Origin: Spirochaetales bacterium
Lineage (GTDB): Bacteria > Spirochaetota > Spirochaetia > SZUA-6 > JAFGRV01
Assembly (NCBI GenBank): GCA_016934975.1
Contig: JAFGRV010000380.1
Coordinates: 1 to 39,308 of the forward strand
Reading direction: 5' to 3'
Length of the DNA stretch: 39,308 nucleotides
The translations under genes and the position numbers were made by a program. Position 1 is the first letter of the stretch. Each line of letters begins with the position of its first letter. This document shows, piece after piece, positions 7,860 through 36,290 of the stretch. Below the pieces are notes generated by a model. It did no database searches and was not told the origin of the DNA. It was given only the letters and a program-made list of their open reading frames with translations.

Positions 7860-9155
<1,296 letters not shown>

Positions 9156-9437
9156 AAATTTATCTAAAGTTAAATGATAGGAAAACCTATAATTTCCCCT
9201 GTGGAAAACTCCCAAAAAAACTGACAATTCCCTGTCATGTGAGCTTATGTTACAACACGAGGGCAAAATAATCAATAAGAAAAATTACCATATCACCCAA
9301 AGTGAACACTCACATCGTGTTTTTTTCCAATACCAAACCTTGCATTAACACCACATCCCGCTATCACCCAAAGGTATACCTTTTTTCATCCCTTTTACCC
9401 AATAGCGTTCCGGTCCTTGGTGTGTCATAGTATTCTC

Positions 9438-10622: not shown

Positions 10623-11432
10623 TCACTCAAATCTTATTGTCCCGGGATCAAAGTCCGGTTCCGGATAGTGAAGATCCATGTCTTTTAATGTCTCTATCAC
10701 AATCTCTGCAACAAGTAAGTCCCGAAACCACCGGGTTTCTGCCGGAATAATATACCAGGGGGCTTGTTTTGTGGAACATCGTGAGAGAGCGGTCTCGAAT
10801 GCCTTCATATAGTCGTCCCATCGTTCCCGTTCTTTTAAGTCTGCGGGATTAAACTTCCAGTATTTATCCGGTCTGGAAAGGCGGCGTTCAAATCGTTCTT
10901 TCTGGTAGTTTTTTGAAATATGAAGATAAAACTTTACAATCCTCGTTCCCTCATCATGCAGCAGCCTTTCAATATTATTTATATGGTCATATCGTCTTTC
11001 GATTGTTTTTTCCGGGGCGAATTTTTTTACCTTTACAATGAGAACATCCTCGTAGTGCGATCTGTTGAAAACACCGATATAGCCTTTGGAAGGGGTCTGC
11101 GCGTGGATTCTCCACAAAAAATCGTGGGCAAGTTCATGTGATGTGGGTGCTTTAAAGGAGGTGACTTTACATCCCGCCGGATTCAGGGGTCCAAGGACAT
11201 TACGGATCGTTGAGTCTTTACCCCCGGCATCCATGGCCTGAAAAACAATCAAAAGGGATTGTTTTGATTCGGCATAGAGTACTTCCTGAAGTTCCTGCAG
11301 CTTCTCCGTTTGTTCCCTGAATCTTTCTTTTCCCTCGTCTTTGTCCATTTTCCCTTTATATTCCGTGTCGATTTTATCAAGCCGGACACTATCACCCTCT
11401 TTTACACGGAAATCTTTTATATCAATACCCAT
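10623..11432 (-). CDS. ppk2: Polyphosphate kinase 2 family protein (polyphosphate:nucleotide phosphotransferase)
   Basis: 'LLIVFQAMDAGGKDSTIRNVLGPLNPAGCKVTSFKAPTSHELAHDFLWRIH', 'GVFNRSHYEDVL', 'RYDHINNIERLL', 'WKFNPADLKERERWDDYMKAFE'. Confidence 0.93.
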   Translation of the reverse strand: MGIDIKDFRVKEGDSVRLDKIDTEYKGKMDKDEGKERFREQTEKLQELQEVLYAESKQSLLIVFQAMDAGGKDSTIRNVLGPLNPAGCKVTSFKAPTSHELAHDFLWRIHAQTPSKGYIGVFNRSHYEDVLIVKVKKFAPEKTIERRYDHINNIERLLHDEGTRIVKFYLHISKNYQKERFERRLSRPDKYWKFNPADLKERERWDDYMKAFETALSRCSTKQAPWYIIPAETRWFRDLLVAEIVIETLKDMDLHYPEPDFDPGTIRFE

Positions 11433-11898: not shown

Positions 11899-11916
11899 GT
11901 TGCCATTAGCAACTAA
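11899..11916. promoter_or_regulatory. Candidate MarR operator/promoter
   Basis: GTTGC-CATTA-GCAAC (11899-11913) overlapping TTAG-CAA-CTAA (11906-11916), immediately upstream of marR. Possible -35 TTGCCA (11901-11906) and -10 TATTAT (11923-11928). Confidence 0.45.
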
Positions 11917-11934
11917 ATATGCTATTATCTATGT

Positions 11935-12357
11935 ATGACACAGTTGATGGATATGATTATCAAATTAAAAGGCTGTTGTGAACGGGAAGAAAAAAATATC
12001 AGCTCTTCCCTGGGTCTAAAGCCCTCGGAGTACAGGACCCTCGCCCTTATCAAGGAAGGATGCGATTATACGAATGACCAATTATCGGAAGAGACAGGTC
12101 TTTCAAAATCAAGAGGGAGCAGGGTTTTTGAGAATTTGGTAAAAAAAGGGTTTTTATTGCGCCGCGAGAATGCCATGGATAAACGCAGTTTCCTCTATGA
12201 GTTGACAAATGACGGAAAGCGGGTAAAGATGGAAATAGCAGTTTTAAAAAAAGTGTGCGAAAATAAAATACTTTTGAGTATCAAAGATCAGGATCATGAT
12301 ATAATACATCAGGGTCTTTATCTTTTGTTACATGTCATGGAGGGAAAGAGTAAATGA
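11935..12357 (+). CDS. MarR-family transcriptional regulator, Cys-rich
   Basis: Winged HTH 'YTNDQLSEETGLSKSRGSRVFENLVKKGFLLRRENAMDKRSFLYELTNDGKRV'; Cys-Cys near the N-terminus (KLKGCCEREEKN). Confidence 0.85.
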   Translation: MTQLMDMIIKLKGCCEREEKNISSSLGLKPSEYRTLALIKEGCDYTNDQLSEETGLSKSRGSRVFENLVKKGFLLRRENAMDKRSFLYELTNDGKRVKMEIAVLKKVCENKILLSIKDQDHDIIHQGLYLLLHVMEGKSK

Positions 12358-12989
12358 ATGAACAGGTAAAAGAATCGATTACAGTGAGATATAATAAATT
12401 GGCACACATGAGTTGCTGTCTTTCCTGCGGCGGTGCCATTAAGCATGCTCATATTAAACCGGGAGAACAGTGCCTGGATCTTGGAAGCGGCAGAGGGCAG
12501 GATGTCATACGAATGGCGGAAGAGGCCGGACCTTCCGGGTTTGCCTATGGAATTGATCTTTCGGAAGGCATGATAGAAAAAGCGAAAAAGAATGCTCACA
12601 AATTCAATATTTCAAACCTGGAGTTTATACAATCGGAATTGGAAATCCTCCCCATTAAAGATGACTCAATCGATGTTGTGATATCCAATTGTACGATTAA
12701 TCATGCCAGGGACAAAGGGGCGGTCTATAAAGAGATTTACCGGGTCCTTAAAAAGGGGGGACGGATCGTTATCAGCGATATTTATTCCCTTGACACCGTA
12801 CCCCCGGAATACGCCGAAGACCCGCAATCAATCTCGGAATGCTGGGGCGGTGCTATCACCAAAGATACCTACATCCGGGTGCTTGAGGAAGCCGGATTTA
12901 ATGAAGTTGTTATTGTGGATGAAAGTGAACCGTATGACAAAGGAAAAATTGTTGTAGCAAGTTTTACTTTTATCGCTTATAAACGATAA
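12354..12989 (+). CDS. ArsM-like SAM-dependent methyltransferase
   Basis: 4-nt overlap (ATGA) with marR. 'CLDLGSGRGQDVIRMAEEAGPSGFAYGIDLSEGMIEKAKKNA', 'VVISNCTINHARDKGAVYKEIYRVLKKGGRIVISDIY', 'SECWGGAITKDTYIRVLEEAGF' as in arsenite methyltransferase-type proteins. Confidence 0.8.
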   Translation: MNEQVKESITVRYNKLAHMSCCLSCGGAIKHAHIKPGEQCLDLGSGRGQDVIRMAEEAGPSGFAYGIDLSEGMIEKAKKNAHKFNISNLEFIQSELEILPIKDDSIDVVISNCTINHARDKGAVYKEIYRVLKKGGRIVISDIYSLDTVPPEYAEDPQSISECWGGAITKDTYIRVLEEAGFNEVVIVDESEPYDKGKIVVASFTFIAYKR

Positions 12990-13000
12990 GGAGGTGTGGA

Positions 13001-13105
13001 ATGAAATCACTTATTAAAAAGGACAAAAAGGCAGAAGTGAATGCCTCAAAAAAAGCATTATGTTGCGCGAAGTTGTCTACAAAAGCAGTGGGGTGTCATG
13101 ACTAA
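13001..13105 (+). CDS. 34-aa Cys-containing putative RiPP precursor peptide
   Basis: ATG at 13001 preceded by AAGGAGGTGTGGA. Translation MKSLIKKDKKAEVNASKKALCCAKLSTKAVGCHD*. Its TAA overlaps the ATG of the radical SAM gene (TAATG). Absent from the ORF track because it is under 60 aa. Confidence 0.7.
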   Translation: MKSLIKKDKKAEVNASKKALCCAKLSTKAVGCHD

Positions 13106-14433
13106 TGTTGAAGGTATCGAAGTATAATATCATCACAAAAGTGAAAGACTCACCGGATTATTTTATTATGAATGCTTTAAGCGGCAGTGCGGATATCCTC
13201 ACTGCCGCCGAGTATTCCCTGATAAAACAAGGGAATATTCCCGATAATCCCGATTTTATTGAAAAGGGTTATGTGGTTGATGAAGCAGCGGAGGAAAAAC
13301 GATTCAGGGAAGAGTATTTCAAGTTTCTCGATCAAAGGGATGATGAAGAAATCCAGTTGTTTTTTATTCCTTCGTACGCCTGTAATTTTAATTGCTTTTA
13401 TTGTTACCAGGATGAATATACGACAGAGAAATCTTCTCTTACACATGAAATAATAGATGCTTTCTTTCATTATATTGATAAGGAATTCGGCATCAGGAAA
13501 AAATATATTACCCTCTTCGGGGGTGAACCTCTTCTGCCGTCTGCGCATCAGAAGGCTATGATCGACTATTTCATAGAACAGACGAACAAGCGAGGTCTCG
13601 GAATTTCCGTGGTGACAAATGGTTACCTTCTTTCGGATTATCTCCCGATCCTTCGAAAAGCAAAGATCCGTGAAATCCAGGTAACCCTGGACGGAACCGC
13701 GAGCTGCCACAATAAACGACGCCCCCTGAAAAATGGCGATCCTACTTTCGACAGAATCGTCCGGGGAATCGACGCAAGTCTTGAAGCCGGGCTCCCCATC
13801 AACCTGAGGGTTGTTCTTGACAGGGAGAACCTGGCGAATCTTCCGGAGCTCGCTCATTTTGCCATGGAAAAAGGCTGGACAAAAAGCGGGCTTTTTAAAA
13901 CCCAGCTGGGAAGGAATTATGAATTGCACAGTTGTCAGCGGAATCCCGAAATCCTACTGAGCCGCCTGGAACTTCACCGGGAGTTGTATGACCTTATCAA
14001 AAAGAATCCGGAGATACTCGATTTTCATAAACCCTCTTTTTCCATCGCAAAACATCTTTTTGAAAACGGTACATTACCCCAGCCGATTTTTGATGATTGT
14101 CCCGGCGCAAAATACGAGTGGGCCTTTGATTTCCGGGGAAATATTTATGCGTGTACCGCGACCGTGGGAAAATCCGGAGAAGAGCTGGGTACCTTTTTCC
14201 CGGAAGTAAAGAAATATGACGATAAAATAGCATGTTGGGAAGACCGTGATATTACCACAATACCCGGATGCGGGGACTGTCCGTCTCAATTGTTATGCGG
14301 TGGCGGATGCGCTTCCCTTGCGAAGAATAAAAACGGCAGCCATTTATCCAAAGATTGCAGGCCATTTACGGAACTTCTGGAGCTTGGAATTGGGTTATAT
14401 TATGATGATTCATCAGAGGAGGAAATAAAATGA
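13105..14433 (+). CDS. Radical SAM/SPASM-domain protein, putative peptide maturase
   Basis: 'SYACNFNCFYCYQDEY' (CxxxCxxC), 'ITLFGGEPLL', 'VTLDGTASCHNKRRPLKNGDPTFDRIVRGI', C-terminal Cys cluster 'CPGAKYEWAFDFRGNIYACTATVG...CGDCPSQLLCGGGC...C'. Confidence 0.9.
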   Translation: MLKVSKYNIITKVKDSPDYFIMNALSGSADILTAAEYSLIKQGNIPDNPDFIEKGYVVDEAAEEKRFREEYFKFLDQRDDEEIQLFFIPSYACNFNCFYCYQDEYTTEKSSLTHEIIDAFFHYIDKEFGIRKKYITLFGGEPLLPSAHQKAMIDYFIEQTNKRGLGISVVTNGYLLSDYLPILRKAKIREIQVTLDGTASCHNKRRPLKNGDPTFDRIVRGIDASLEAGLPINLRVVLDRENLANLPELAHFAMEKGWTKSGLFKTQLGRNYELHSCQRNPEILLSRLELHRELYDLIKKNPEILDFHKPSFSIAKHLFENGTLPQPIFDDCPGAKYEWAFDFRGNIYACTATVGKSGEELGTFFPEVKKYDDKIACWEDRDITTIPGCGDCPSQLLCGGGCASLAKNKNGSHLSKDCRPFTELLELGIGLYYDDSSEEEIK

Positions 14434-15719
14434 GTGAAAAAATAAAATATATCGATACAGACCAGTATGATAAGGAAGTACTTGCCGGAGGGAAGGTTGT
14501 TCTTGATTTTTATTCGACCGAATGTCCCCCCTGCGAGGCCCTTGCAGCCAAATATGAGCAATTAAGTCTCATGTATGGAGAGGATATTAAATTCTTGAAA
14601 ATTTTCCGTCAGGAAAACAGGGCTTTGGCGGAAAAACTCGGGGTCTCCGGATCTCCTACAGTTTTGTTCTATAATAATGGTGAGAGAACCGGAGATGTTC
14701 TGACTGGCGGTATTAAGCGGTCGGAGTTGATAAAAAATCTTGATGCCTTGTTACCCGAAGAAAGAATCACGGCGATTAAAGCCGGTATCAAGCCCCGGGA
14801 AACAACCTGTGATCTTCTAATCCTCGGGGGTGGTCCCGCGGGATTAACCGCCGGGATATACGCTGCCCAGGCCAAGATTAATGTTCTGCTTGTGGATATT
14901 GCCCTGACCGGGGGCCAGGTTAAAACAACACATATGGTTTCCAACTATCCCGGGTTTAAAGAGCCTCAACCCGGTTATATGCTGATGCATTATATGCAGG
15001 AGCAGGCGGTCGCCGCCGGAGTTGAGTTCCGTCAGGCTGTTGATGTTACTTCCATCAACCTCCAAAAAAAAGAGATACTCATCGATAATTATGAAACAAT
15101 TCGCGCAAAGAAAATAATTATCGCCACAGGTTCTTCCCCGAAACCTCTCGGCCTGCCTGGTGAAAAAGAATACCGGGGAAAGGGAATATCCTATTGCGCT
15201 ACCTGTGATGCGAAATATTACGAAGGAAAAGAAATCATCCTGATCGGGGGAGGTAATTCCGCCATCGAAGAGGCTTTGTTTATCGCCAGGTTTGCTTCGA
15301 AAATAACCATCGTGCACCAGTTTGCCGTATTGCAGGCAAATAAGGTTGCCCAGGAAAAGGCGTTTGCGAATGAGAAAATCAATTTTCTTTTCGAGCATGA
15401 ACCGAGGGCGTTCATTAAAAGAGATAACGGGGATATGGCTGTGGTTGTTGAAAACCTTAAGACCGGTGAACGTACAACCCTGGAAACCAGGGGAGTATTT
15501 GTTTTTGCCGGAATGCAGCCCAACCTGGATGGAATAAAAGGGAATAATGATCTTGCTTACGACAAATGGGGATATATTCAGGTTGATGATCTCATGCATA
15601 CGAACATACCGGATGTCTTCGCCGCAGGTGATGTGGCGAGCAAGCCGTTACGTCAGATCACTATCGCCACCTCGGAAGGAACCATTGCTGCTGTCCAGGC
15701 TGCAAGGGAATTGGAATAG
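14430..15719 (+). CDS. Thioredoxin - thioredoxin reductase fusion (thioredoxin domain N-terminal)
   Basis: 4-nt overlap with the rSAM gene. N-terminal thioredoxin domain with CPPC (FYSTECPPCEAL); C-terminal FAD/NAD(P) domains 'LLILGGGPAGLTAGIYAAQ', 'GISYCATCDAKYYEGKEIILIGGGNSAIEEA', 'VFAAGDV'. Confidence 0.92.
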   Translation: MSEKIKYIDTDQYDKEVLAGGKVVLDFYSTECPPCEALAAKYEQLSLMYGEDIKFLKIFRQENRALAEKLGVSGSPTVLFYNNGERTGDVLTGGIKRSELIKNLDALLPEERITAIKAGIKPRETTCDLLILGGGPAGLTAGIYAAQAKINVLLVDIALTGGQVKTTHMVSNYPGFKEPQPGYMLMHYMQEQAVAAGVEFRQAVDVTSINLQKKEILIDNYETIRAKKIIIATGSSPKPLGLPGEKEYRGKGISYCATCDAKYYEGKEIILIGGGNSAIEEALFIARFASKITIVHQFAVLQANKVAQEKAFANEKINFLFEHEPRAFIKRDNGDMAVVVENLKTGERTTLETRGVFVFAGMQPNLDGIKGNNDLAYDKWGYIQVDDLMHTNIPDVFAAGDVASKPLRQITIATSEGTIAAVQAARELE

Positions 15720-15729
15720 TGTGATTTTT

Positions 15730-17919
15730 TTAAACTATCTCCACTTTTCCGGATTTATAAAATTCATCACCAAGCACTACTTCTGCGTTTGTATCACCAT
15801 CGTGGAAAAGAAGGGCATGGGAGACAGGCTGGAGTATTTTCTTTTCAATGAGCCGTTCAACACCTCGTGCTCCTGTTTTGTTCTTTTTCAGAAAGGAGAG
15901 TAGATAATCGCCTATTTTCTCATCATCGTATGTGAGGATAATATCCCGTTTTTTTAGCCGTTCGAGGGCCGTTTTGCACTTCAGGATGATAATTTCTTTA
16001 ATATGTTTATCATCAAGTGAATTAAAAAGGATTAATTCATCCAGCCGGGCAAGAAATTCCATGGGAAAATGATCAAGGAGTAAGTCGGTTATATCCGGTT
16101 TTGCGGCCGCTTGTTCAAAACCGACGGTTTGTTTTTTTAGATCTTCCAGGCGAAGGGCATTGGTCGTCAGGATAATGACACATTGTCTGCAATCAAGACG
16201 TTCACCTTTACTGCTCGATATTCTTCCGTTATCCAGGAGCCCGAGAAGAAGCTTGTGGACATCGGGGTGTGCTTTTTCTATTTCGTCGAAGAGGATGACT
16301 CCGCTCCCGGTAGTATGAAGCCAGTCCGTGAGGACCCCTTCTTTTTCGCTTCCCACATAACCTGCCGGAGACCCTATCAGCTTATTGATTGATCCGCCCT
16401 GATTATATTCCGCGAGATCCAGGAGGAGCAGGGAATTCCTTTTCCCGAAAAATACATTTGCTATCACTCTTGCCAGTTCCGTTTTCCCGATTCCCGACTG
16501 CCCGGCAAAGAGAAATGAACCGAGATTTTTTTCTTCCGGTCCGAAATCAAGGCGGCGGTGAATCAGGGTTGCGCATACTTTTTTTATCGGTTCATCCTGT
16601 CCGATTATCCATTTTTTTATTTCGGATTCGAGGTTGCGGAGTTCTTCCCGTATATCGCCGGTAAGGGAAGAGATCGGCCGCCCTGTCTGGCGGGAGAGGG
16701 TGTTTAACAACTCATCAATGGTAATGATATCTTTACCGGCACGTGACACATTCACACATGTCGAATCAAGGAGGTCCACGCTTTTGTCAGGCTGAAAGCG
16801 GGTCGGTAAATGGCGGTCTGTGAGGCGGATTGCTTCACGGATTACTCTTTCGGATATCTCGATGGAATGATGGCTGGTCAGGCTCCGGGCCTGGGCACGT
16901 ACCATTTTATAGGTGAGTTCTTCATCTGGTTCATCCAGGCGTATCTCCTGAAACCGCCGTGCTAATGCCGCATCCTGGTTTATATAGCGGTGAAATTCTT
17001 CGACTGTTGTGGCGCCGATGACACGAATTGACCCCCGTCCGAGAAAGGGTTTTAACAGATTCGCCGCGTCTGTTGTGACGCCTTCTGCTCTGCCCGCACC
17101 CCAGATAAGATGCATTTCATCTATAAAAAGAATCGCGGAATCAATCTCGGTAATAGTATCGATAACTGCGCTCATCCGTTCTTCAAAATCACCCCTGTAC
17201 TTTGTCCCGGCCACAAGCTTCCCCATGCTTACTTCAAATACTTTTACGCCGTTAAGACGGGGCGGAAGATTTTCTTCGGTAGCAAGATACTTAGCGAAGA
17301 GTTCGACTAATGCGGTTTTCCCGACACCTGCGGGGCCGGTAAGGGCGGGGTTTGCTTTTTGCTTCCGCAGGAGAACCTCCAGGAGTCTGTCTATTTCTTT
17401 CGGTCTGTTACAGAGTGAATCAAACTCGCCTTCGGCGGCCAGGGCGGTAAGATCCCGGCCATATTTAAGGAGCGGATTGGATATTTTTTTTACCTCAATA
17501 CCGTGAGCTGCTAAAATTCCGCTTTTCCCCTGCATCGCTTTATTTATATTTCTTTTTAAAGTATCGATGTTACAGCCTGACTGTTGTAATGTTTTATATA
17601 TTCTGTTCTCCGGGTTTTCGACGAGAAGCTTAAGCAGATGGGCGCCGTAAACAGGACCTTCGGTGGCAACTAATAGGCACGAAGTGAGTAAAGCATCATC
17701 CTCTTTGGAGGTTGTGTTTAAAAAAGGTTGTATGCTTTGTGAAAAATCTTCCAATGTCAGACCGGTTTCGTTGAATATTGCAGAAAGTTCCTTGTAAGGA
17801 TCGCTTTCCGCCCAACTGATGAGCATCGCGACAAGAGTAATGGGGGCACCGGGAAATCGTTTAATACATAGTTTTCTCAATTCGTACATGGTGATCATAC
17901 AAAGCTCCTTTTTCCTCAA
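15730..17919 (-). CDS. ClpA/ClpB-like double AAA+ ATPase
   Basis: Two Walker A motifs (GPAGVGKTALVE; GQSGIGKTELAR), 'GTKYRGDFEERM', 'AILFIDEMHLIWGAG', 'GSPAGYVGSEKEGVLTDWL', 'FDEIEKAHPDVHKLLLGLLDNGR'. Start may be the internal MITMYELRK. Confidence 0.92.
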   Translation of the reverse strand: MRKKELCMITMYELRKLCIKRFPGAPITLVAMLISWAESDPYKELSAIFNETGLTLEDFSQSIQPFLNTTSKEDDALLTSCLLVATEGPVYGAHLLKLLVENPENRIYKTLQQSGCNIDTLKRNINKAMQGKSGILAAHGIEVKKISNPLLKYGRDLTALAAEGEFDSLCNRPKEIDRLLEVLLRKQKANPALTGPAGVGKTALVELFAKYLATEENLPPRLNGVKVFEVSMGKLVAGTKYRGDFEERMSAVIDTITEIDSAILFIDEMHLIWGAGRAEGVTTDAANLLKPFLGRGSIRVIGATTVEEFHRYINQDAALARRFQEIRLDEPDEELTYKMVRAQARSLTSHHSIEISERVIREAIRLTDRHLPTRFQPDKSVDLLDSTCVNVSRAGKDIITIDELLNTLSRQTGRPISSLTGDIREELRNLESEIKKWIIGQDEPIKKVCATLIHRRLDFGPEEKNLGSFLFAGQSGIGKTELARVIANVFFGKRNSLLLLDLAEYNQGGSINKLIGSPAGYVGSEKEGVLTDWLHTTGSGVILFDEIEKAHPDVHKLLLGLLDNGRISSSKGERLDCRQCVIILTTNALRLEDLKKQTVGFEQAAAKPDITDLLLDHFPMEFLARLDELILFNSLDDKHIKEIIILKCKTALERLKKRDIILTYDDEKIGDYLLSFLKKNKTGARGVERLIEKKILQPVSHALLFHDGDTNAEVVLGDEFYKSGKVEIV

Positions 17920-20900
17920 TTATCCTCTATGAGTTTGGTTTTTATTCCGGTGACCGGCCGGTTGTTTGCTTTCTTGTGTACCAAAAATCTCGAATTCAAC
18001 CGTTTAATAACAGTGTCTCTGTTATTGTATAATTTTAAGTAATTTTCTCTTTCCGGATGGGTGTCATGTAACACCTCGGCGTTTTTCCCTTCCTGTTCAC
18101 ATTCAATAACATTGATAATATCGATTCTGTCTGTCCAGAATCTTCCGGAAGGCGCATTGTTATCCGGCGGAGTGGTCCAGAGAAATCCTTCATTAAGATT
18201 GTAATACGTCGCCCTCAGTTCGAAGGTATCAAGAGTCCAGAATTTTACTGTTCCGTCATAGCTGGAGGTTATGAGCAGATTTTCATCTTCGATAAGTGAA
18301 ACCCCGGATATCCAGCCAAGGTGTTCTTCGGTGAGGAGTTTTATACATTTCCCGGTATCACTATCCCAGACTGATACAGATCCGATATTACTTCCTGAAA
18401 TTATCCGGGTCCTGTCGACAGTCATCGCAAGGGCCGTAACATAACTTTCCGTCTTAATTATTTTAAAAGGGATACCTGTTCTTACATCCCATAGACGGAT
18501 AGTTTTATCCTTGCTCCCGGAGACAAGAAGCGTTTCATCCCAACTCAAGGTAATTTTACTCACACTCTCCGTATGTCCTTTAAAGGTGTTAAGAACCGTT
18601 CCCTTTTCTACATTCCATTCCTTTATAGTCTTATCTTCACTGCAGGTGTAAAGCTTTTCTTCGTTTCTGCTTAATTTAAGATCATACACTGCTCCTTTGT
18701 GACCTTTATATGTCGAGGAGCACATAATATAATTTGTATTCCACCTGCGGGCATAATGATCCGAAGATGCAGTATAAAGGTAATTACCTTTCGAATTAAG
18801 GAGCAAGGAATTTACTGTTTCAGTATGTTCAAACCAGCGAAGTTGTTTGCCGGTTTTCGCGTCTAAAAGATTTGTCAGGACACATCTTCCTCCAGCGACA
18901 ATACGTTGCCCCGAAAGACTCATATACACGGCGTAGGTAGCAGACATACAATATCTGTATTCTTTGGTGACCCGTGCTTCCCGGAGATCGATTTTTTTTG
19001 CGCCAAACTCCCAGCAGCCTATAAGTACTTCATGTGTGTAGGGATTTACGTGCATGGCGCATACACTGTTGGCGAATCCTGTAAATTCCCGGGCCAGAAC
19101 ACCGTTTTTAACAAACCACATCCGCATTGAATATTTTCCGGATGTAAAAATATATTTTCCCTGCCGATCGAATCGTGCGGAATAAAGCTGATAATCATTG
19201 CCGTTTATTTCTTTTAAAAGTTTTCCTGTTTCATTGTTCCAAATCCGGATAACTTTATCATTTCCTCCGGACATAGTCATTTTGTTATTGTCGCTTATAT
19301 CAACAGAATAAATAGTATGTGAACACCCGTCATATTCCCGAAGGAGTTTTTCCGTCTCTATTTCCCATAGCCGGACTTTAAGATCACATCCCCCGGTAAT
19401 AAGATATTTGTTATCTTTACTAATCCGGACGGCTTCCACCCAATCGGTATGTTCACGAAAAACATGCAGACATATTCCCTTATTCACATCCCAAATCCGG
19501 GCCGTATTATCCGCGCTTCCGGTTGCCAGGAGAGTACCATCATCACTTAAATCCAGGGTAAAGACGGTATTATCATGCCCCCAGAAGTTCCGGATAAGAT
19601 CTCCTGTTTCAAAATCATATATCCGTATGTTTTCGTAGAGCTCCCGGCAGCAGATGATAATTGACTTCATATCCGGGGTAATACAGATACCATGGATATT
19701 ATCTGCTTTTGTATTTATTGTCCTGATATTTTTTCCGGTTATCAGATCCCATAGAACAATATAACCATTATCACTTCCGGTAATGAGGAACTTATTATCT
19801 TTTGTTATGTAAAGGGAAAGGATTCCATTTCCCCTGGTTTTACGTTGTACTAACTTATAACGGAGGTTGTTTTGTTGTAAATCCCATACGTTGACGATTC
19901 CATCCCATCCACTTGTAACAAGGATTGTATTGTCCCGGCTCAAGCTCAGAGCAGAGACATTCTTTGAATGTCCTTTAAACTCGGATATACAATTTCCCGA
20001 TTCGAGGTCCACAATTCCGACACGGTGTTCAGATCCGAATACAACGTTTTTATTATCTCTGCTAAATTGTAATGCGTTTACTCCCCAGGTTGGTCCGCCA
20101 AGTGTATAGGCATGAAAAGGATCGGCTATAGACCATAACTTGATAATTCCATCAAGATCTCCGGTAAGGAGGGTTTTTTCATCCGGGCTTAAGGTGATTG
20201 TCATAATCCAGTTTTTATGCCCCTCATATTTCATAATACAGGTACTCGATGCTATATCCCATCTCATGGCAGTACCGTCTCTCCCTCCCGAGAATAGTTC
20301 CGTACCCGCTTTATTTATATGAAGAGAAAATATTTCACCATTATGTCCCTGAATCGTTTGGGGATTACTCCTGTTCTTTGTGTCCCATTTTTTAATGAAG
20401 GAATCTTCACTTCCGGTAAAAAGATATCGATCATCCGGTGTAAGAACAACCACACGTACGGCTTTCTTATGACCGCTGAATATGCGTGTACATTTTCCGG
20501 AATCGAGACTCCATTTCCTTGCCGTTTTATCCTCACTGCCGGAATAAATAGTTCTTCCGTCTGAGCTTGTAATTATTGATCTGATCCTCGCCGTATGGCC
20601 TCTCATGATTTTTAAGCATTTCCCGGTTTCAAGTTCCCAGACCCGGATTGTTTTGTCCCAACTTCCGGTTATGAGAATCTTATCATCCGGGGTGACAGCG
20701 AGAGCCCGTACCGTATCGGTATGTCCTACAAAGACTTTTAAACACCGTCCGGTTGCTATATCCCACAGCCGGGCTGTGTTGTCATCACTTACCGACACAA
20801 TTTTCGTATTATCATGAGTGATGAATAATTCCCTGATCCAATCCGTATGTCCTCCCACATTATGGGTTTTATCCCGTACTTTTATATTGCAGAGATCAAA

Positions 20901-20999
20901 GATGTTCTGTTGTACATCGGACAGGTGATTTCCCGTAGCTTCATGGAGAGAAATATTTTTGTCTGATTCATCTGATGTTAAAGATTTATCTTTACTCAT
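17916..20999 (-). CDS. Large WD40-repeat protein (1027 aa)
   Basis: Many WD40 units ('GHTDTVRALAVTPDDKILITGSWDKTIRVWELETGKCLKI' and similar) across nearly the whole ORF. Stop overlaps the Clp-like start by 4 nt. Confidence 0.95.
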   Translation of the reverse strand: MSKDKSLTSDESDKNISLHEATGNHLSDVQQNIFDLCNIKVRDKTHNVGGHTDWIRELFITHDNTKIVSVSDDNTARLWDIATGRCLKVFVGHTDTVRALAVTPDDKILITGSWDKTIRVWELETGKCLKIMRGHTARIRSIITSSDGRTIYSGSEDKTARKWSLDSGKCTRIFSGHKKAVRVVVLTPDDRYLFTGSEDSFIKKWDTKNRSNPQTIQGHNGEIFSLHINKAGTELFSGGRDGTAMRWDIASSTCIMKYEGHKNWIMTITLSPDEKTLLTGDLDGIIKLWSIADPFHAYTLGGPTWGVNALQFSRDNKNVVFGSEHRVGIVDLESGNCISEFKGHSKNVSALSLSRDNTILVTSGWDGIVNVWDLQQNNLRYKLVQRKTRGNGILSLYITKDNKFLITGSDNGYIVLWDLITGKNIRTINTKADNIHGICITPDMKSIIICCRELYENIRIYDFETGDLIRNFWGHDNTVFTLDLSDDGTLLATGSADNTARIWDVNKGICLHVFREHTDWVEAVRISKDNKYLITGGCDLKVRLWEIETEKLLREYDGCSHTIYSVDISDNNKMTMSGGNDKVIRIWNNETGKLLKEINGNDYQLYSARFDRQGKYIFTSGKYSMRMWFVKNGVLAREFTGFANSVCAMHVNPYTHEVLIGCWEFGAKKIDLREARVTKEYRYCMSATYAVYMSLSGQRIVAGGRCVLTNLLDAKTGKQLRWFEHTETVNSLLLNSKGNYLYTASSDHYARRWNTNYIMCSSTYKGHKGAVYDLKLSRNEEKLYTCSEDKTIKEWNVEKGTVLNTFKGHTESVSKITLSWDETLLVSGSKDKTIRLWDVRTGIPFKIIKTESYVTALAMTVDRTRIISGSNIGSVSVWDSDTGKCIKLLTEEHLGWISGVSLIEDENLLITSSYDGTVKFWTLDTFELRATYYNLNEGFLWTTPPDNNAPSGRFWTDRIDIINVIECEQEGKNAEVLHDTHPERENYLKLYNNRDTVIKRLNSRFLVHKKANNRPVTGIKTKLIEDN

Positions 21000-31060: not shown

Positions 31061-32599
31061 GTGAGTGATTATGATGGAATTCCCTGTGATGCCCATGACT
31101 ATGAATTGCTGAAAAAATTGGAAGAAAAAACGGGAAAACAATTTCCTGTTGCGGACTCTCTCTCTCAATGGCAGGAAGCACGCTTTGAAAAGGGGGTTGT
31201 TATCAGGGATGGTAAAGTAATTGCTTTGGATCTTTCATATAAAGCTCTGCGAACCTTGCCGGAAGCAGTAATGGAACTTACCAGCCTTATTGCACTTGAT
31301 CTAAAAGGAAATACATTTAAAAACACTCCTCATAATATAGGTGTTTTAAAATGCTTAAAATACTTAAGCTTAAGTAATACGGGAATAAAAACATTTCCCC
31401 GCACCCTCCTTGAACTTGTCCATTTACATGAACTGGAATTATCGGGTAATGAACAATTACAAAGTTTGCCAAAGGACATCGAACTCCTTGCTGATCTTCG
31501 AATTCTTAATATCAGCTTTTGCGGGATTTTATCTTTACCTGCGGGGTTTGTGAAATTAAAAAACCTTACTTCTTTTTATGGCGGCGGTAATAAAATGACA
31601 TCTCTTCCGGAAGAAATCGGAGATCTTGAAAACCTTGAACATCTTGATCTTAAGGAAAATAAACTTACGATGTTGCCGGAAAGTATATCCATGCTTTCTC
31701 ATCTTCGTGTTCTTGATTTATCACAGAATAATTTTTCTGCATTCCCCCAATCCGTGACAAAATGCGGAAGTTTAATTAAATTGGGATTTGCCGCAAACCA
31801 GGTTAAAAATATTCCGGATTCAATAGGTGATCTTAATAATTTGGAATATCTTAATGTGACTGATTGTGAACTCCTGTCTTTACCGGATTCAATAAAAAGA
31901 CTTGAAAAATTAAAAGAATTATATATTTCCTGGAATAAATTCGAAGACCTCCCCCCCATTATCGGGGAGCTCGTTCATCTTGTAAAATTGGATGCCAGCA
32001 ATTGTTTTATTTCTTTTCTTCCTCCTTCCTTCTGCAATCTTACCGAGCTCAAACATCTGAATCTGCTTAACAATAACCTTGAAATTTTTCCGGAAATTAT
32101 TTTTTCCCTGCATCATTTGGAAAAACTGAACATGATGAGTAATCATATTGTATCCCTTCCTGAAAAGATAAACAGTCTGTCACATCTTAAGGAACTTAAT
32201 CTGGAGGATAATGCTCTTACGGAGCTCCCGGAATCTATCTGTGAATTATCCGAACTTAAAAATTTGATACTTTCTTATAATAAACTCCGGAAAGTACCGC
32301 CGGGTTTTTCAAATATTGATACCCTCTATACTCTGGAACTTGACGGCAATGAATGGACGGATTTTTATAAAAACCATATTATACGTGAGACAACGGCACT
32401 TACTCTCATGCAACTTGAACGTTTAAATGAGTTTATATCAACTCTTATTGAAAAGATAGAACAGAGCCAGCCTTTGGATGATTTTGACAGAGCATATCCG
32501 TATTACCACGACTATAAAGATATTCTCACCATAAAATGCAGAGAGTACGATAATGCAACGTCGAAGGAAGTCTTTTCGATTTTGTCATCCTTAGCTTAA
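31061..32599 (+). CDS. Leucine-rich repeat protein
   Basis: GTG start; many ~23-aa LRR units ('LPESICELSELKNLILSYNKLRKVPPGFSNIDTLYTLELDGNEW'). Confidence 0.92.
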   Translation: MSDYDGIPCDAHDYELLKKLEEKTGKQFPVADSLSQWQEARFEKGVVIRDGKVIALDLSYKALRTLPEAVMELTSLIALDLKGNTFKNTPHNIGVLKCLKYLSLSNTGIKTFPRTLLELVHLHELELSGNEQLQSLPKDIELLADLRILNISFCGILSLPAGFVKLKNLTSFYGGGNKMTSLPEEIGDLENLEHLDLKENKLTMLPESISMLSHLRVLDLSQNNFSAFPQSVTKCGSLIKLGFAANQVKNIPDSIGDLNNLEYLNVTDCELLSLPDSIKRLEKLKELYISWNKFEDLPPIIGELVHLVKLDASNCFISFLPPSFCNLTELKHLNLLNNNLEIFPEIIFSLHHLEKLNMMSNHIVSLPEKINSLSHLKELNLEDNALTELPESICELSELKNLILSYNKLRKVPPGFSNIDTLYTLELDGNEWTDFYKNHIIRETTALTLMQLERLNEFISTLIEKIEQSQPLDDFDRAYPYYHDYKDILTIKCREYDNATSKEVFSILSSLA

Positions 32600-33519
32600 A
32601 AGACATATATTCCCCGGAAGGCCTCGAAGGTATTGACAGCGGCACCAAGGAGTTCTTCTTTGAGACAAATCTCATCGCAGAGCATCATCCTGTGATACCC
32701 GATATCGTAGAGCCATGCAAGCTGAAGCAGGTCCGCACATGCGGGTACCGGTTTATTTACAAGCGAAAGCAGCATTCTGGAACCTGCGAATGCTTCTGGG
32801 TCTCTGTTGATAATGAGTTTTAAAGCGGCCATCATATGGTGGGGTTTGTCTATCTCCACATAGAGGTCCCCGCAGGCAGCCATAAGGATGAGATCCGGAT
32901 CTTTTTTAAACTCTGTTGCGACATAATCCAGCCCTTTTTTATTCTCGATTTTTGCGACAATTGTACCGTCTCCAACATGTTCACGAAACTCGTCTATGTC
33001 AGATGCTTTTTCCACATATGAAAGACACCATTTGCTGAATCCCGCTTGTTTTGCTTTACTGATTTTTTCAATTTCATAATCGAGTAATACAGGACCCGAA
33101 ACATCAAGGCTCGGATGCCGAATGTGGATGGATTCGCCCGGATAGACATTATATTCCGGCCCGCCCTCAAAAATAAGGTGGCGTTTATCCGCCACCTTGA
33201 TACATAATGCATGGTCTTCCCCCCCTTTAAAGAGTATGGGTACCGGTGTCTTCACCGTTATAGGGTGATTAAGGGTGAGTTCCAGATGATCCGGGTATGA
33301 CATCACATCCGTTACCCGTAATTGTTTACCTTTTATATCAAATAGAAAGGGCACGGGATTATCGATTGTTTTTAGAATATTCAGGTCTGCGTCAAGTTCC
33401 TGAGTATGTATCATCGCACTATTGAGTCTGATGCCGGCAAGGCGGTCATCAATGGCAAATCGGCTGAAATGAGGAAATGTCGGCCAGAGGGAAACGAATA
33501 ATTCACACGTGTTCATCAT
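32596..33519 (-). CDS. Pyruvate-kinase-like PEP-binding TIM-barrel protein (short, divergent)
   Basis: 'PFLFDIKGKQLRV', 'GPVLLDYEIEKISKAKQAGFSKWCLSYVEKASDIDEFREHVGDGTIVAKIENKKGLDYV', 'GDLYVEI' parallel pyruvate kinase core motifs. No obvious C-terminal domain; 307 aa. Confidence 0.65.
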   Translation of the reverse strand: MMNTCELFVSLWPTFPHFSRFAIDDRLAGIRLNSAMIHTQELDADLNILKTIDNPVPFLFDIKGKQLRVTDVMSYPDHLELTLNHPITVKTPVPILFKGGEDHALCIKVADKRHLIFEGGPEYNVYPGESIHIRHPSLDVSGPVLLDYEIEKISKAKQAGFSKWCLSYVEKASDIDEFREHVGDGTIVAKIENKKGLDYVATEFKKDPDLILMAACGDLYVEIDKPHHMMAALKLIINRDPEAFAGSRMLLSLVNKPVPACADLLQLAWLYDIGYHRMMLCDEICLKEELLGAAVNTFEAFRGIYVF

Positions 33520-33531
33520 ATATACCTGCTG

Positions 33532-35199
33532 TCATTTCTTGCTTTTTTTTGAAGGTGATTTCTTCTTTGGAGTACTCGTATCCTTCCTGGTTGCTGTTTT
33601 CTCTTTTTTGGAAGCGGCTGCGGTTTTCTTCGTTCGGGCTGGCGTTTTCTTTGCATCAGTTGTTGTTTTTTTCGTTGCGGTGGTTTTCTTTGAAGCAGCC
33701 GTTGTTTTTTTCGTCCCGGCAGTCTTATTTGCATCAGTTGTCGTTTTCTTCGTCCCTGCCGTCTTATTTGGAGCAGCCGTTGTTTTCTTCGTTGCGGTGG
33801 TTTTCTTTGAAGGAGCCGTTGTTTTCTTCGTGTCTGCCGTCTTCTTGGAAGCAGCCGTTGTTTTTTTCGTCCCGGCAGTCTTCTTTGCATCAGTTGTCGT
33901 TTTCTTCGTTGCGGTGGTTTTCTTTGAAGCAGTCGTTGTTTTCTTCGTGCCGGCCGTCTTCTTTGAAGGAGCCGTTGTTTTCTTCGTGCCGGCCGTCTTC
34001 TTTGAAGGAGCCGTTGTTTTCTTCGTGCCGGCCACAACTTTCTTGGAAGTATCTGTGGTTTTCTTCCTCCCGGGTGCCGCCTTCCTGGCAGCAGTCGTGG
34101 TCTTCTTTGTCCCGGCTGAAACCTTCCCGGAAACATCCGTGGGTTTTTTGTCTTCCGGAGGAGCATCAATAAGTTTCTTCATACTTGTCGTACCTGTTTT
34201 GCCGGGAGTTTTGATTCCCTTTGAGATAAGTGGTTTCGATGTTTTGGTGGTACTCTTCGTCGTGGTTGTTACGGATTTAGCCGATGTCGTATCTTTTGAA
34301 TCCGGTGAAGAAATCCCGAGGATCGTGTGAAGACCTTTCATCGCTGTTTTTACCTGGTCCGGTTTCTGGCGCTGAGTGATCTCCTCCTGAAAATATTTTA
34401 TCTTGCCTGTTTCTTTGGCAAGAATACCGAAGATAACATCGACAATTCGTTCGGCATTGGGAAGAAAAGCCATATGATCTTCTCCCAGGACATCCGCCCA
34501 TTGTTTATGGATTTTCATATCGGCGGAACTCATTTTGTCACCGCCTGTTTTGGAATATGGCTGACGTATGCAGTAGACCGCGAATTTTTGTTGTAATGCC
34601 CGGAGAACATCGGCATAACTCGTTCTCTTTTCGAGGTTTGTCCGTGTCCAGCGCTTTGCCTGGGCAGTATCGACAAATTCATATAATCCCTCATCACCGA
34701 TAAAAATAATAATCGGATTAAGAGCATTGGGCATTTTGACATGATTTGCGTAGTAGAGAGCCCCAAGTTCGTATGTCTCCATGCTCTGGCCCCCCCCGCC
34801 TCCTTCAATTATGAGTTCTTCCAGCTCTTTTTTCAGATCAAGGCCTTTTACGAAAGGACGTACCTGCAGAGGATAATTATCCGAATATGCATCGCCGATG
34901 GCTGCAAAACTGATCTCCAGATCATCTCCAAGATATTCTTTTCCTTCCAGATCGAGATAGGGGCATTTGGAAAAGATGGTTGCCGGGGATTCTCCCATTG
35001 AACCGGTGACATCACACGCGACAACCAGCGGTGCCTTACTTTCCGTAACTAATTCCACCGGAACAAGTTTATCCGGATTAACACTTTTTTTTACCGCATC
35101 CGAATAACTGCGGCCGACATGAATATCATATTTTTGCTTCGCGGATTTAAAATCATGTCCTTTCCATGGTCCCGGATCCCAATCACCTGCTTCTGACAT
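33532..35199 (-). CDS. vWA-domain-like protein with Lys/Thr/Ala-rich repeat tail
   Basis: 'PLVVACDVTGSMGESPATIF' (MIDAS-like DxTxS), 'IIIFIGDEGLYEFVDTAQA'. C-terminal ~200 aa are (GTKKTTAPSKKTA)-type repeats. Confidence 0.8.
   Translation of the reverse strand: MSEAGDWDPGPWKGHDFKSAKQKYDIHVGRSYSDAVKKSVNPDKLVPVELVTESKAPLVVACDVTGSMGESPATIFSKCPYLDLEGKEYLGDDLEISFAAIGDAYSDNYPLQVRPFVKGLDLKKELEELIIEGGGGGQSMETYELGALYYANHVKMPNALNPIIIFIGDEGLYEFVDTAQAKRWTRTNLEKRTSYADVLRALQQKFAVYCIRQPYSKTGGDKMSSADMKIHKQWADVLGEDHMAFLPNAERIVDVIFGILAKETGKIKYFQEEITQRQKPDQVKTAMKGLHTILGISSPDSKDTTSAKSVTTTTKSTTKTSKPLISKGIKTPGKTGTTSMKKLIDAPPEDKKPTDVSGKVSAGTKKTTTAARKAAPGRKKTTDTSKKVVAGTKKTTAPSKKTAGTKKTTAPSKKTAGTKKTTTASKKTTATKKTTTDAKKTAGTKKTTAASKKTADTKKTTAPSKKTTATKKTTAAPNKTAGTKKTTTDANKTAGTKKTTAASKKTTATKKTTTDAKKTPARTKKTAAASKKEKTATRKDTSTPKKKSPSKKSKK
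33590..34180. repeat. Imperfect 39-bp tandem repeats encoding the 13-aa KKTTAPSKKTAGT-like tail
   Basis: e.g. gccggccgtcttctttgaaggagccgttgttttcttcgt repeated in tandem near 33950-34030, with degenerate copies either side. Confidence 0.85.
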
Positions 35200-35282
35200 A
35201 GCTTCCTCCTAAAAAATAAAATTTTACTTGAATTGAAAGCAAAAATCTTTAATTATATTGATTTCTGCAATAGCTCCTGCTT

Positions 35283-36290
35283 CTAAAAATTTGGAATTGG
35301 TTTCATCTCCGACCGCCGTCGTCCGAAAAGTTTCAGCCGTAAATCGGCAATTGAATCGGTAAAATCTTCAATTTCCCATCCCGGGCGTGAAAGCACATCC
35401 CGTACAAGGAACCTCCTTAGAAACGAACAAAGCTCATCAGGCACTGTTTCAGGTACTTCCTTTGTTGCCACATCACCGCCCAGTGCATAAATCATGGTCA
35501 TGGCAAGACTGTAAAAATCCGACCGGGGAATGAGAACATTCCCGGCCATCTGTTCCGGTGAGGCATAATAGGGTGTGTAGCCGATGTTTTTTGCATCGCT
35601 TTTAGGCCGGATCATGGCGAGTCCGTAATCCACAAGTACAACCGTATGACTTGACGGCTGCATTATAATATTCTGGGGTTTAACATCCCCGTGAACGACG
35701 CCATGATAATGAAGGTATTTTAAGATATTCAGAGTCCGCTCCATGACCCAGCAGACATGTTCGGGGTCAAGACGGGTGTTTTTTTCAATAATTTTTGCAA
35801 GGGTGGGACCGGGAATATAACTCATGACAATCGCGTAGCTCCCGTCATCCAGCCGCACAAGGTCCCTGATTGCGGGAATCCCGAAGTGCCTGAGATCCCA
35901 GATAGCCCGGGCTTCATCCATAAGTATTTCCGCGTCCTGGGGGGAAATATTTATTCCATGTTTGATGCATACCGGGGTTTTAAGTTTGATATGTTCTCCC
36001 CTGTATGTGCGTCCGAATCCTCCTTCCGCGATAAGTTCAAGTACCCGGAAACCCCCGATATCTGTCTCTTCAAGATCGTTTCGTTCTTTATCATAGGCCT
36101 CCCGCTTTTTTTTATCCAGGAGGATTTCTTTTGCATTATTAATCACTTTCGCGATTTTTTGGTCACCATCTGTTTTATCAGGATGATATTCCTGAATAAG
36201 TACTTTATAAGCCGCATTAATAACTTCCGGTCTGGCCCTGGGGCTTACTTCGAGGATATCATATAGATTACCGGAAAGATCATCTCCCAT
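35283..36290 (-). CDS. J-domain - Ser/Thr protein kinase fusion
   Basis: N-terminal J domain 'LYDILEVSPRARPEVINAAYKVLIQEYHPDKTDGDQKIAKVINNAKEILLDKKKREAYD'; kinase 'IAEGGFGRTYRGEH', 'VVHGDVKPQNIIM', 'VLVDYGLAM', 'YYASPEQ', 'DFYSLAMTM'. Confidence 0.92.
   Translation of the reverse strand: MGDDLSGNLYDILEVSPRARPEVINAAYKVLIQEYHPDKTDGDQKIAKVINNAKEILLDKKKREAYDKERNDLEETDIGGFRVLELIAEGGFGRTYRGEHIKLKTPVCIKHGINISPQDAEILMDEARAIWDLRHFGIPAIRDLVRLDDGSYAIVMSYIPGPTLAKIIEKNTRLDPEHVCWVMERTLNILKYLHYHGVVHGDVKPQNIIMQPSSHTVVLVDYGLAMIRPKSDAKNIGYTPYYASPEQMAGNVLIPRSDFYSLAMTMIYALGGDVATKEVPETVPDELCSFLRRFLVRDVLSRPGWEIEDFTDSIADLRLKLFGRRRSEMKPIPNF

Follow-up and report, generated by a model that had tools for sequence, protein, structure and literature searches.

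What does an operon do in which a MarR-family regulator, an ArsM-like methyltransferase (MTase), a short cysteine-bearing peptide, a radical SAM/SPASM enzyme and a fused thioredoxin-thioredoxin reductase (Trx-TrxR) are encoded in direct succession? The operon lies at positions 11935-15719 of the window, the whole stretch of 39,308 nucleotides from a Spirochaetales bacterium that was analysed (Table 1). A sequence-only reading had described five closely joined ORFs and proposed that they make a modified thiol-rich peptide. Direct reading of the window gave the same ORFs and junctions, namely a 4-nt overlap (ATGA) between marR and the MTase gene, an 11-nt gap before the peptide gene that holds the ribosome-binding site AAGGAGGTG, a 1-nt overlap (TAATG) between the peptide and radical SAM genes, and a 4-nt overlap between the radical SAM and Trx-TrxR genes. 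The window shows exact translational coupling; gaps in relatives are mostly 0-50 nt, with 160-330 nt from the MTase to the radical SAM gene when the peptide gene is counted in. The five-gene unit with MarR, although correct for the window, is one form only; most operons from outside the spirochaetes gave no relative of MarR.

Table 1. Features of the operon and of the region immediately upstream of it, in window coordinates.
Feature	Position	Strand	Evidence
Candidate operator GTTGCCATTAGCAAC for the operon's own MarR	11899..11913	.	Conserved palindrome; putative
Promoter-like TTGCCA-17-TATTAT	11900..11928	+	Consensus scan; overlaps candidate operator
MarR-family regulator, 140 aa	11935..12357	+	Pfam MarR_2 E 3e-8; 14-orthologue alignment
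ArsM-like SAM methyltransferase (MTase), 211 aa	12354..12989	+	Methyltransf_31 / PRK11873-like; CmArsM alignment; AlphaFold model
Shine-Dalgarno AAGGAGGTG of peptide gene	12988..12996	+	Read directly
Precursor peptide, 34 aa (MKSLIKKDKKAEVNASKKALCCAKLSTKAVGCHD)	13001..13105	+	Homologue conservation; no NCBIfam or Pfam family
Radical SAM/SPASM peptide maturase, 442 aa	13105..14433	+	Pfam Radical_SAM; conserved Cys; fold match
Fused thioredoxin-thioredoxin reductase, 429 aa	14430..15719	+	Pfam Thioredoxin 6-105 + Pyr_redox_2 128-417

The 34-aa peptide ORF in the window begins with a basic N-terminus (MKSLIKKD), continues through a variable linker and ends in the core ALCCAKLSTKAVGCHD. In 107 distinct homologues the final 16 residues read AQCC[AST]Kx[ST]xxxxGCHD up to the stop codon and the leader is variable, the length of homologous peptides ranging from 30 to 52 residues. 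A chance ORF was rejected: over 100 loci, spread across at least four phyla, encode the same peptide and use differing synonymous codons for its fixed residues. A core that is fixed while its linker is free and its synonymous codons are mixed points to purifying selection on one structure, and in being held constant it differs from the cores of diversifying antimicrobials. The sequence-only reading depended on a small CC...C ORF being conserved in homologous operons, and neighbourhood search found one there at the same position. NCBIfam and Pfam profile searches returned no peptide family.

The peptide and radical SAM/SPASM genes occur together in Spirochaetota, Bacteroidota, Ignavibacteriota and Myxococcota. 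Among the best 80 relatives by radical SAM protein, 74 had the peptide, 73 the MTase and 71 the Trx-TrxR protein; a DNA search starting from the peptide led to 30 Spirochaetota loci, 29 of them with the MTase and radical SAM genes within 1.5 kb and the remaining one with its radical SAM gene 2.3 kb away. From both search directions, then, a conserved short precursor gene adjoins the maturase gene, as is characteristic of RiPP systems. The parts are rearranged yet still together in Myxococcota, and at two loci (L134 and L138) the matches to Trx and to TrxR lay in separate stretches. A radical SAM paralogue in the same genome (G000:C429, 36% identity) and three further loci (L060, L061 and L063) were set aside as other systems, no such peptide or partners having been found there. 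Carriage as plasmid or phage cargo was rejected, as plasmid and phage collections gave no match above 30% identity.

In the maturase, C93, C97 and C100 form the radical SAM motif CxxxCxxC, followed by seven SPASM cysteines (C332-x12-G345-x4-C350, C389-x2-C392-x5-C398-x3-C402 and C418) and with C277 as an additional cysteine. Every one of the 112 system proteins spanning the site has Cys at the motif and SPASM positions, although Pfam did not call a SPASM domain in the maturase. Its predicted fold resembles that of CteB over residues 5-436 (Z 24.9, 395 residues, 16-18% identity), the best full-length match that takes in the N-terminus, and also those of anSME and ChlB. The N-terminal 80 residues or so, predicted as strands and then helices, align with the N-terminal part of CteB from model residue 5; Pfam reported no RRE family. 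The closest NCBIfam relatives are maturases of Cys-rich peptides, and not a family with a non-peptide substrate, which would have spoken against the sequence-only reading. The best of them is the CefB 'Cys-every-fifth' maturase (NF038107; 155 bits against a cut-off of 600), followed by TIGR04463 (132 against 525) and the Clo7bot (111 against 600), PapB (106 against 340) and geopeptide (103 against 400) maturases, and the SCIFF maturase model TIGR03974 gave 74 bits against 425. Known family names were rejected, since no NCBIfam model passed its cut-off for either the peptide or the maturase. CteB/SCIFF and other ranthipeptide systems likewise combine a radical SAM/SPASM enzyme with an adjoining gene for a small Cys peptide, but the SCIFF peptide has a six-Cys pattern where the operon peptide has a CC...GCHD core, and the operon adds the ArsM-like MTase and Trx-TrxR. 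By its likeness to CteB in the predicted fold, the maturase may be akin to those of ranthipeptides or sactipeptides, which have Cys thioether cross-links.

Alignment of the MTase to CmArsM places its C25, C113 and C163 at CmArsM C72, C174 and C224, the three cysteines that bind As(III) in that enzyme (PMC3877260). The triad is kept in system MTases from several phyla (C25 in 104 of 104, C113 and C163 each in 105 of 105); the canonical-ArsM loci used in this comparison of Cys sites were L177, L178 and L181. Many of the system MTases also end in a tail rich in Cys. CmArsM (4fr0) was also the best match to the AlphaFold model (Z 24.8, 193 residues, 34% identity). With the complete As(III)-binding triad retained, the link to ArsM is stronger than the sequence-only reading knew. 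The MTase has the fold and triad in common with ArsM/AS3MT, but at 211 residues it is shorter than ArsM, and its gene is linked to those of a peptide and its SPASM maturase. Against PRK11873 (NF008823) it scored 194.6 bits, below the cut-off of 263, and its orthologues 176-202 bits. A canonical ArsM is also present in four genomes that carry the operon (G004, G027, G034 and G055).

The Trx CPPC (residues 32-35) and TrxR CATC (residues 256-259) pairs are both conserved in 18 orthologues, and Trx/TrxR is a favoured reductant of AS3MT (PMC12608789). Among 106 families of 108 same-strand neighbour ORFs, the 25 commonest included no ars efflux, reductase or regulator family, and membership of an ars cluster was rejected for this lack of recurrent ars neighbours. 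Acr3 was weakly associated with the operon, being found in 16 of 22 carriers versus 32 of 76 others (p = 0.015, or p = 0.08 after correction for genome size).

The cysteines C15 and C108 of MarR are invariant in 14 orthologues. Of 14 loci, 13 have the palindrome TTGCTAWTAGCAA ahead of marR, with a summed score of 165 against a mean of 119 and a maximum of 125 for dinucleotide shuffles, and the candidate operator is the one place in the 6.8-Mb assembly that matches TTGCYAWTRGCAA exactly. The promoter-like element agrees with 10 of 12 consensus positions and has a TG before the -10; chance matches of this kind are common, and what speaks for a promoter here is its overlap with the conserved candidate operator. 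A putative palindromic operator in the marR promoter would be in keeping with autoregulation. A regulon beyond the operon was rejected, as the palindrome is a single site in the genome of the window and extra sites in other genomes came at about the frequency of a reversed-pattern control. Operons without MarR had no palindrome match of at least 11/13 upstream of the MTase gene.

We tentatively favour the reading that the radical SAM enzyme matures an intracellular thiol peptide of RiPP type, and that this peptide, together with the ArsM-like methyltransferase and a reductant of its own, would act on metalloids like As(III). As a RiPP system the operon is well supported, whereas we infer the arsenic part, and with it the metalloid function and the methylation and redox cycling of the peptide. 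Judging by the families concerned, MarR with its two invariant cysteines would repress at the TTGC...GCAA candidate operator over the promoter until a metalloid or a thiol-reactive signal frees it. The basic N-terminus of the 30-52-residue peptide could serve as a recognition segment and the 16-residue C-terminus (AQCCAKxSxxxxGCHD) as the functional core, which the radical SAM/SPASM enzyme would modify, a thioether or C-C link on or close to Cys being the likeliest change. Since no transporter or protease gene recurs beside the operon, the product is probably retained in the cell, where the thiols and His of the mature peptide may bind As(III) or another thiophilic metalloid like it. The ArsM-like enzyme, with its whole As(III) triad, would methylate the peptide-bound metalloid, and the fused Trx-TrxR could donate electrons to re-reduce both peptide and MTase. 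Gene content, the conservation of the peptide and of the cysteines, the predicted folds and the conserved palindrome are what the analysis shows; the proposed actions of MarR, maturase, MTase and Trx-TrxR and the metalloid binding are drawn from the families of these proteins. The identity of the metalloid, and the part of the peptide as ligand, carrier or substrate, are guesses.

For the metalloid-RiPP reading we counted the two-sided linkage of peptide and radical SAM genes, the fixed core, the CteB-like fold, the invariant triad and the AS3MT reductant precedent, together with the cohesion of the parts after rearrangement in Myxococcota and the local operator-like palindrome. Against the metalloid reading we counted the non-recurrence of ars neighbours, the separate canonical ArsM, the corrected Acr3 result, and an MTase that is shorter than ArsM and under the cut-off of its subfamily.

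A metalloid would not be needed if an MTase of ArsM descent simply methylated the radical SAM-modified peptide at Cys, His or a terminus, with Trx-TrxR only keeping its cysteines reduced. MTase scores below the ArsM cut-offs, the lack of recurrent ars genes nearby and the closeness of peptide and MTase genes in 29 of 30 peptide-first loci would all suit such ordinary tailoring. However, a plain S-, N- or O-methyltransferase is not expected to need the As(III)-site cysteines, which never vary among the 105 MTases of several phyla, and the common Cys-rich MTase tail points the same way, so that we regard this explanation as rather unlikely. Adjoining ArsM and radical SAM enzymes are also a known pattern of organoarsenical biosynthesis (PMC8552651). 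Much as ArsL and ArsM do for arsinothricin, or ArsS and ArsM for arsenosugars, the radical SAM enzyme might form a C-As bond or set up an arsenic-bearing peptide, the arsenic of which the ArsM-like enzyme would methylate. The intact As(III) site of the MTase would fit, but the maturase carries all the SPASM cysteines and is related to peptide maturases, while a single Fe-S cluster has been inferred for ArsL (PMC8552651), and no ArsQ-like exporter recurs; an organoarsenical RiPP of this kind seems improbable to us. We give a similarly low probability to the idea that the peptide becomes a redox carrier or a signal, as meant for mycofactocin or SCIFF, with Trx-TrxR as its dedicated partner and the MTase acting as a guard or having lost its ancestral substrate. 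Such a role could account for the strongly conserved core, the dedicated reductase and the absence of a recurrent exporter, yet no dehydrogenase or cofactor-using partner enzyme recurs among the operon neighbours, the recurrent ones being DUF1847, DUF302 and DUF6132.

Among known systems, arsQML (arsinothricin) and ArsM-ArsS (arsenosugar) share with the operon the pairing of an ArsM-type and a radical SAM enzyme (PMC8552651), but their products are small molecules made without a peptide gene, and arsQML lies within an ars operon with an exporter. Literature searches on the gene combination, DUF1847 and metal-binding RiPPs found no description of the operon system, nor a peptide partner for any arsenic-methylating enzyme. 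Copper-binding RiPPs such as bufferins are made by MNIO (DUF692) enzymes instead of a radical SAM enzyme, and we know of no ArsM-like partner for them. These RiPPs, among them a conserved Microbulbifer RiPP (PMC12538549), are conserved Cys peptides like that of the operon; they are reported to have a link to metals and a role outside warfare, as may also hold for the operon peptide.

The near-fixed 16-residue core with its maturase, ArsM-like enzyme and reductase occurs in at least four phyla and is absent from the curated family libraries searched. It is possible, and we put it forward with some reserve, that this is a new RiPP class for metalloid chemistry, in which a radical SAM-matured thiol peptide presents an As(III)-like element to the ArsM-like MTase, or itself bears an organoarsenical, with its own Trx-TrxR as reductant. 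If the metalloid reading is true, RiPP chemistry would be joined to arsenic biotransformation, and in arsenic methylation the peptide would be a ribosomal counterpart of glutathione or metallothionein; even if it is false, the operon represents a well-defined new SPASM RiPP family. DUF1847, on which a literature search found no paper, recurs as a sixth gene of the operon and gains a genomic context from it.

The five ORFs of the operon and all of their junctions, read from the window sequence, match the sequence-only reading exactly, and the operon is self-contained because its PPK2 and ClpA-like neighbours both lie on the opposite strand. The window is one contig in an assembly of 6.8 Mb (665 contigs, 87% complete) from a group with Spirochaetota relatives.

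Coordinates of the operon genes and their neighbours in the window, with examples of DUF1847 (PF08901) genes at relatives' loci
Feature	Position	Strand	Basis
marR	11935-12357	+	ORF read in window
Methyltransferase	12354-12989	+	ORF read in window
Peptide gene	13001-13105	+	ORF read in window
Radical SAM gene	13105-14433	+	ORF read in window
Trx-TrxR gene	14430-15719	+	ORF read in window
PPK2, upstream neighbour	10623-11432	opposite to operon	
ClpA-like ATPase, downstream neighbour	15730-17919	opposite to operon	
DUF1847 examples	L126:7342-7920; L048:4482-5054; L041:5060-5602; 22 other loci		

The peptide ORF is real. In relatives with an intact interval, an ORF ending in CCAKxSxxxxGCHD-stop lies between the methyltransferase (MTase) and radical SAM (rSAM) genes, usually preceded by a Shine-Dalgarno-like sequence. 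When the rSAM alignment was used to scan the genomes of 84,980 species, at least 472 relatives were found, counting all degrees of radical SAM kinship; the best 80 belong to Bacteroidota, Spirochaetota including Leptospiraceae, Ignavibacteriota, Myxococcota and other 'Deltaproteobacteria'. A neighbourhood search for a conserved CC...C ORF between the rSAM and MTase genes had been proposed from the sequence alone. Of these best 80 loci, the peptide was present at 74, the MTase at 73, the Trx-TrxR protein at 71 and a recognisable MarR at 8. Three of the six peptide-less loci begin where a contig ends; for two more, the peptide motif turned up on a different contig of the same genome, and for the last, L134, no peptide motif was found. 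Conversely, a degenerate DNA pattern of the core alone, applied to 296 Spirochaetota genomes irrespective of the enzymes, was present in 34 (reversed-pattern control, 0/296); at 29 of 30 such loci examined the MTase and rSAM genes both lay within 1.5 kb, and at the thirtieth the rSAM gene was 2.3 kb off on the same contig. The link between peptide and enzymes therefore holds both ways. Within the class, 24 of 98 genomes had an rSAM match, with a close relative (49-57% identity) in 22 and only paralogues of 27-34% in the remainder, so that close relatives are patchy. One Bacteroidales bin (KR4_bin-0449) carries two operon copies on two contigs (CAIWMA010000128 and CAIWMA010000259), whose peptides differ slightly.

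Across 107 distinct peptides of 30-52 aa, the final 16 residues read A-Q-C-C-[AST]-K-x-[ST]-x-x-x-x-G-C-H-D. The CC, K/R, S/T and GCH[D/E] positions are partly fixed by data selection, since the collection demanded them; however, A-16 (107/107) and Q-15 (106/107) were free to vary, and K was never R, nor D ever E, although either was allowed. The fixed residues use mixed synonymous codons, the N-terminus resembles MK[ST]L[IV]K, and the variable linker holds an additional CC or CxC pair in 21 of the 107. This profile is that of a peptide held to a single structure for a conserved job rather than of a diversifying antimicrobial.

A leader-plus-core peptide very probably matured by the radical SAM enzyme is the reading with the best data support. 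The maturase has CxxxCxxC, all seven SPASM cysteines and C277; the NCBIfam models closest to it describe enzymes that mature Cys-rich peptides (CefB, TIGR04463, Clo7bot, PapB and geopeptide), and it scores far under the cut-off of each. Residues 5-436 of its AlphaFold model (mean pLDDT 83) share the fold of the SCIFF thioether maturase CteB (Z 24.9, rmsd 3.9, 395 residues), with anSME and ChlB matching at similar Z. A tree of 115 sequences places the rSAM proteins of the system in one group (SH-aLRT 100), with three other spirochaete paralogues outside it; phyla are interleaved within the group, which suggests horizontal transfer, and the window's protein is placed, with support that is not strong, near Bacteroidota sequences. 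A second, 36% identical radical SAM protein in the window's own genome (G000:C429, at L059:12010-13344) has no such peptide nearby. Library models gave no name to peptide or maturase, and no description of the gene combination was found in the open-access papers searched. Viewed by type of system, the operon is a new variant among SPASM RiPPs.

When the methyltransferase (METHYLTRANSFERASE) was aligned to Cyanidioschyzon ArsM, C25, C113 and C163 corresponded to C72, C174 and C224, the three residues that bind As(III) and are required for the first methylation step (PMC3877260), and this triad is kept in 104/104, 105/105 and 105/105 of the system homologues covering each site. The three best structure matches of the predicted MTase are all ArsM (4fr0: Z 24.8, 193 residues, 34%). 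The last gene encodes a CPPC thioredoxin fused to a CATC thioredoxin reductase. The Trx/TrxR couple is among the reductants that AS3MT favours (PMC12608789). At Myxococcota loci, L134 and L138 among them, Trx and TrxR are matched in two distinct stretches, and several Myxococcota operons are rearranged or divided between both strands with their parts retained. Three features, an intact metalloid site, a core rich in thiols and the Trx-TrxR partner, suggest that the system may act on As(III)-like metalloids. The strongest rival is that a re-purposed ArsM would simply methylate the peptide. The system MTase is shorter than ArsM and falls under the ArsM subfamily cut-off, and a canonical ArsM coexists with the operon in four carrier genomes. 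A peptide carrying arsenic as the product is also conceivable, because organoarsenical biosynthesis already offers cases of ArsM next to a radical SAM enzyme (PMC8552651). If it makes a metalloid peptide, the system would be new in kind.

As to action on metalloids, none of the 25 most frequent families in a count of 108 neighbouring ORFs on the same strand is an arsenic-resistance family, and Acr3 was commoner in operon carriers (16/22 vs 32/76, p 0.015), an excess no longer clear after genome-size correction (p 0.08). DUF1847, whose N-terminus is rich in Cys, recurs as a sixth gene and adjoins or sits inside the operon in 25 loci; no publication on it was found in the open-access literature. 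DUF302 (14 loci) and DUF6132 (11 loci), the latter a small membrane-like protein with GCSSGSC, recur near Bacteroidota operons (e.g., L123:3768-4172 and L102:1513-1755).

Two MarR cysteines are kept in 14 orthologues, and a palindrome, TTGCTAWTAGCAA, overall far over the shuffled-sequence level, lies 8-62 nt upstream of marR at 13 of 14 loci. The window copy, GTTGCCATTAGCAAC, overlaps a promoter-like TTGCCA-17-TATTAT and is the sole such site in the assembly. This pattern points to a probable local, dedicated regulator with a candidate operator. The predicted marR -10 box ends just 6 nt before the ATG (11900-11935), so the operon transcript may be leaderless.

Elsewhere in the window, the ClpA-like double-AAA ATPase and a 1027-aa WD40-repeat protein overlap by 4 nt on the minus strand (15730-20999) and look like a two-gene unit. 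The stretch 31061-36290, its proteins named by eye from translations, encodes a protein of leucine-rich repeats, another whose low-complexity Lys/Thr tail is specified by a 39/117-bp tandem repeat (33643-34116), and, at 35283-36290, a J-domain/serine-threonine-kinase-like fusion. About 30 ATC triplets (8622-8712) encode a poly-aspartate run within minus-strand ORF 7860-9275.
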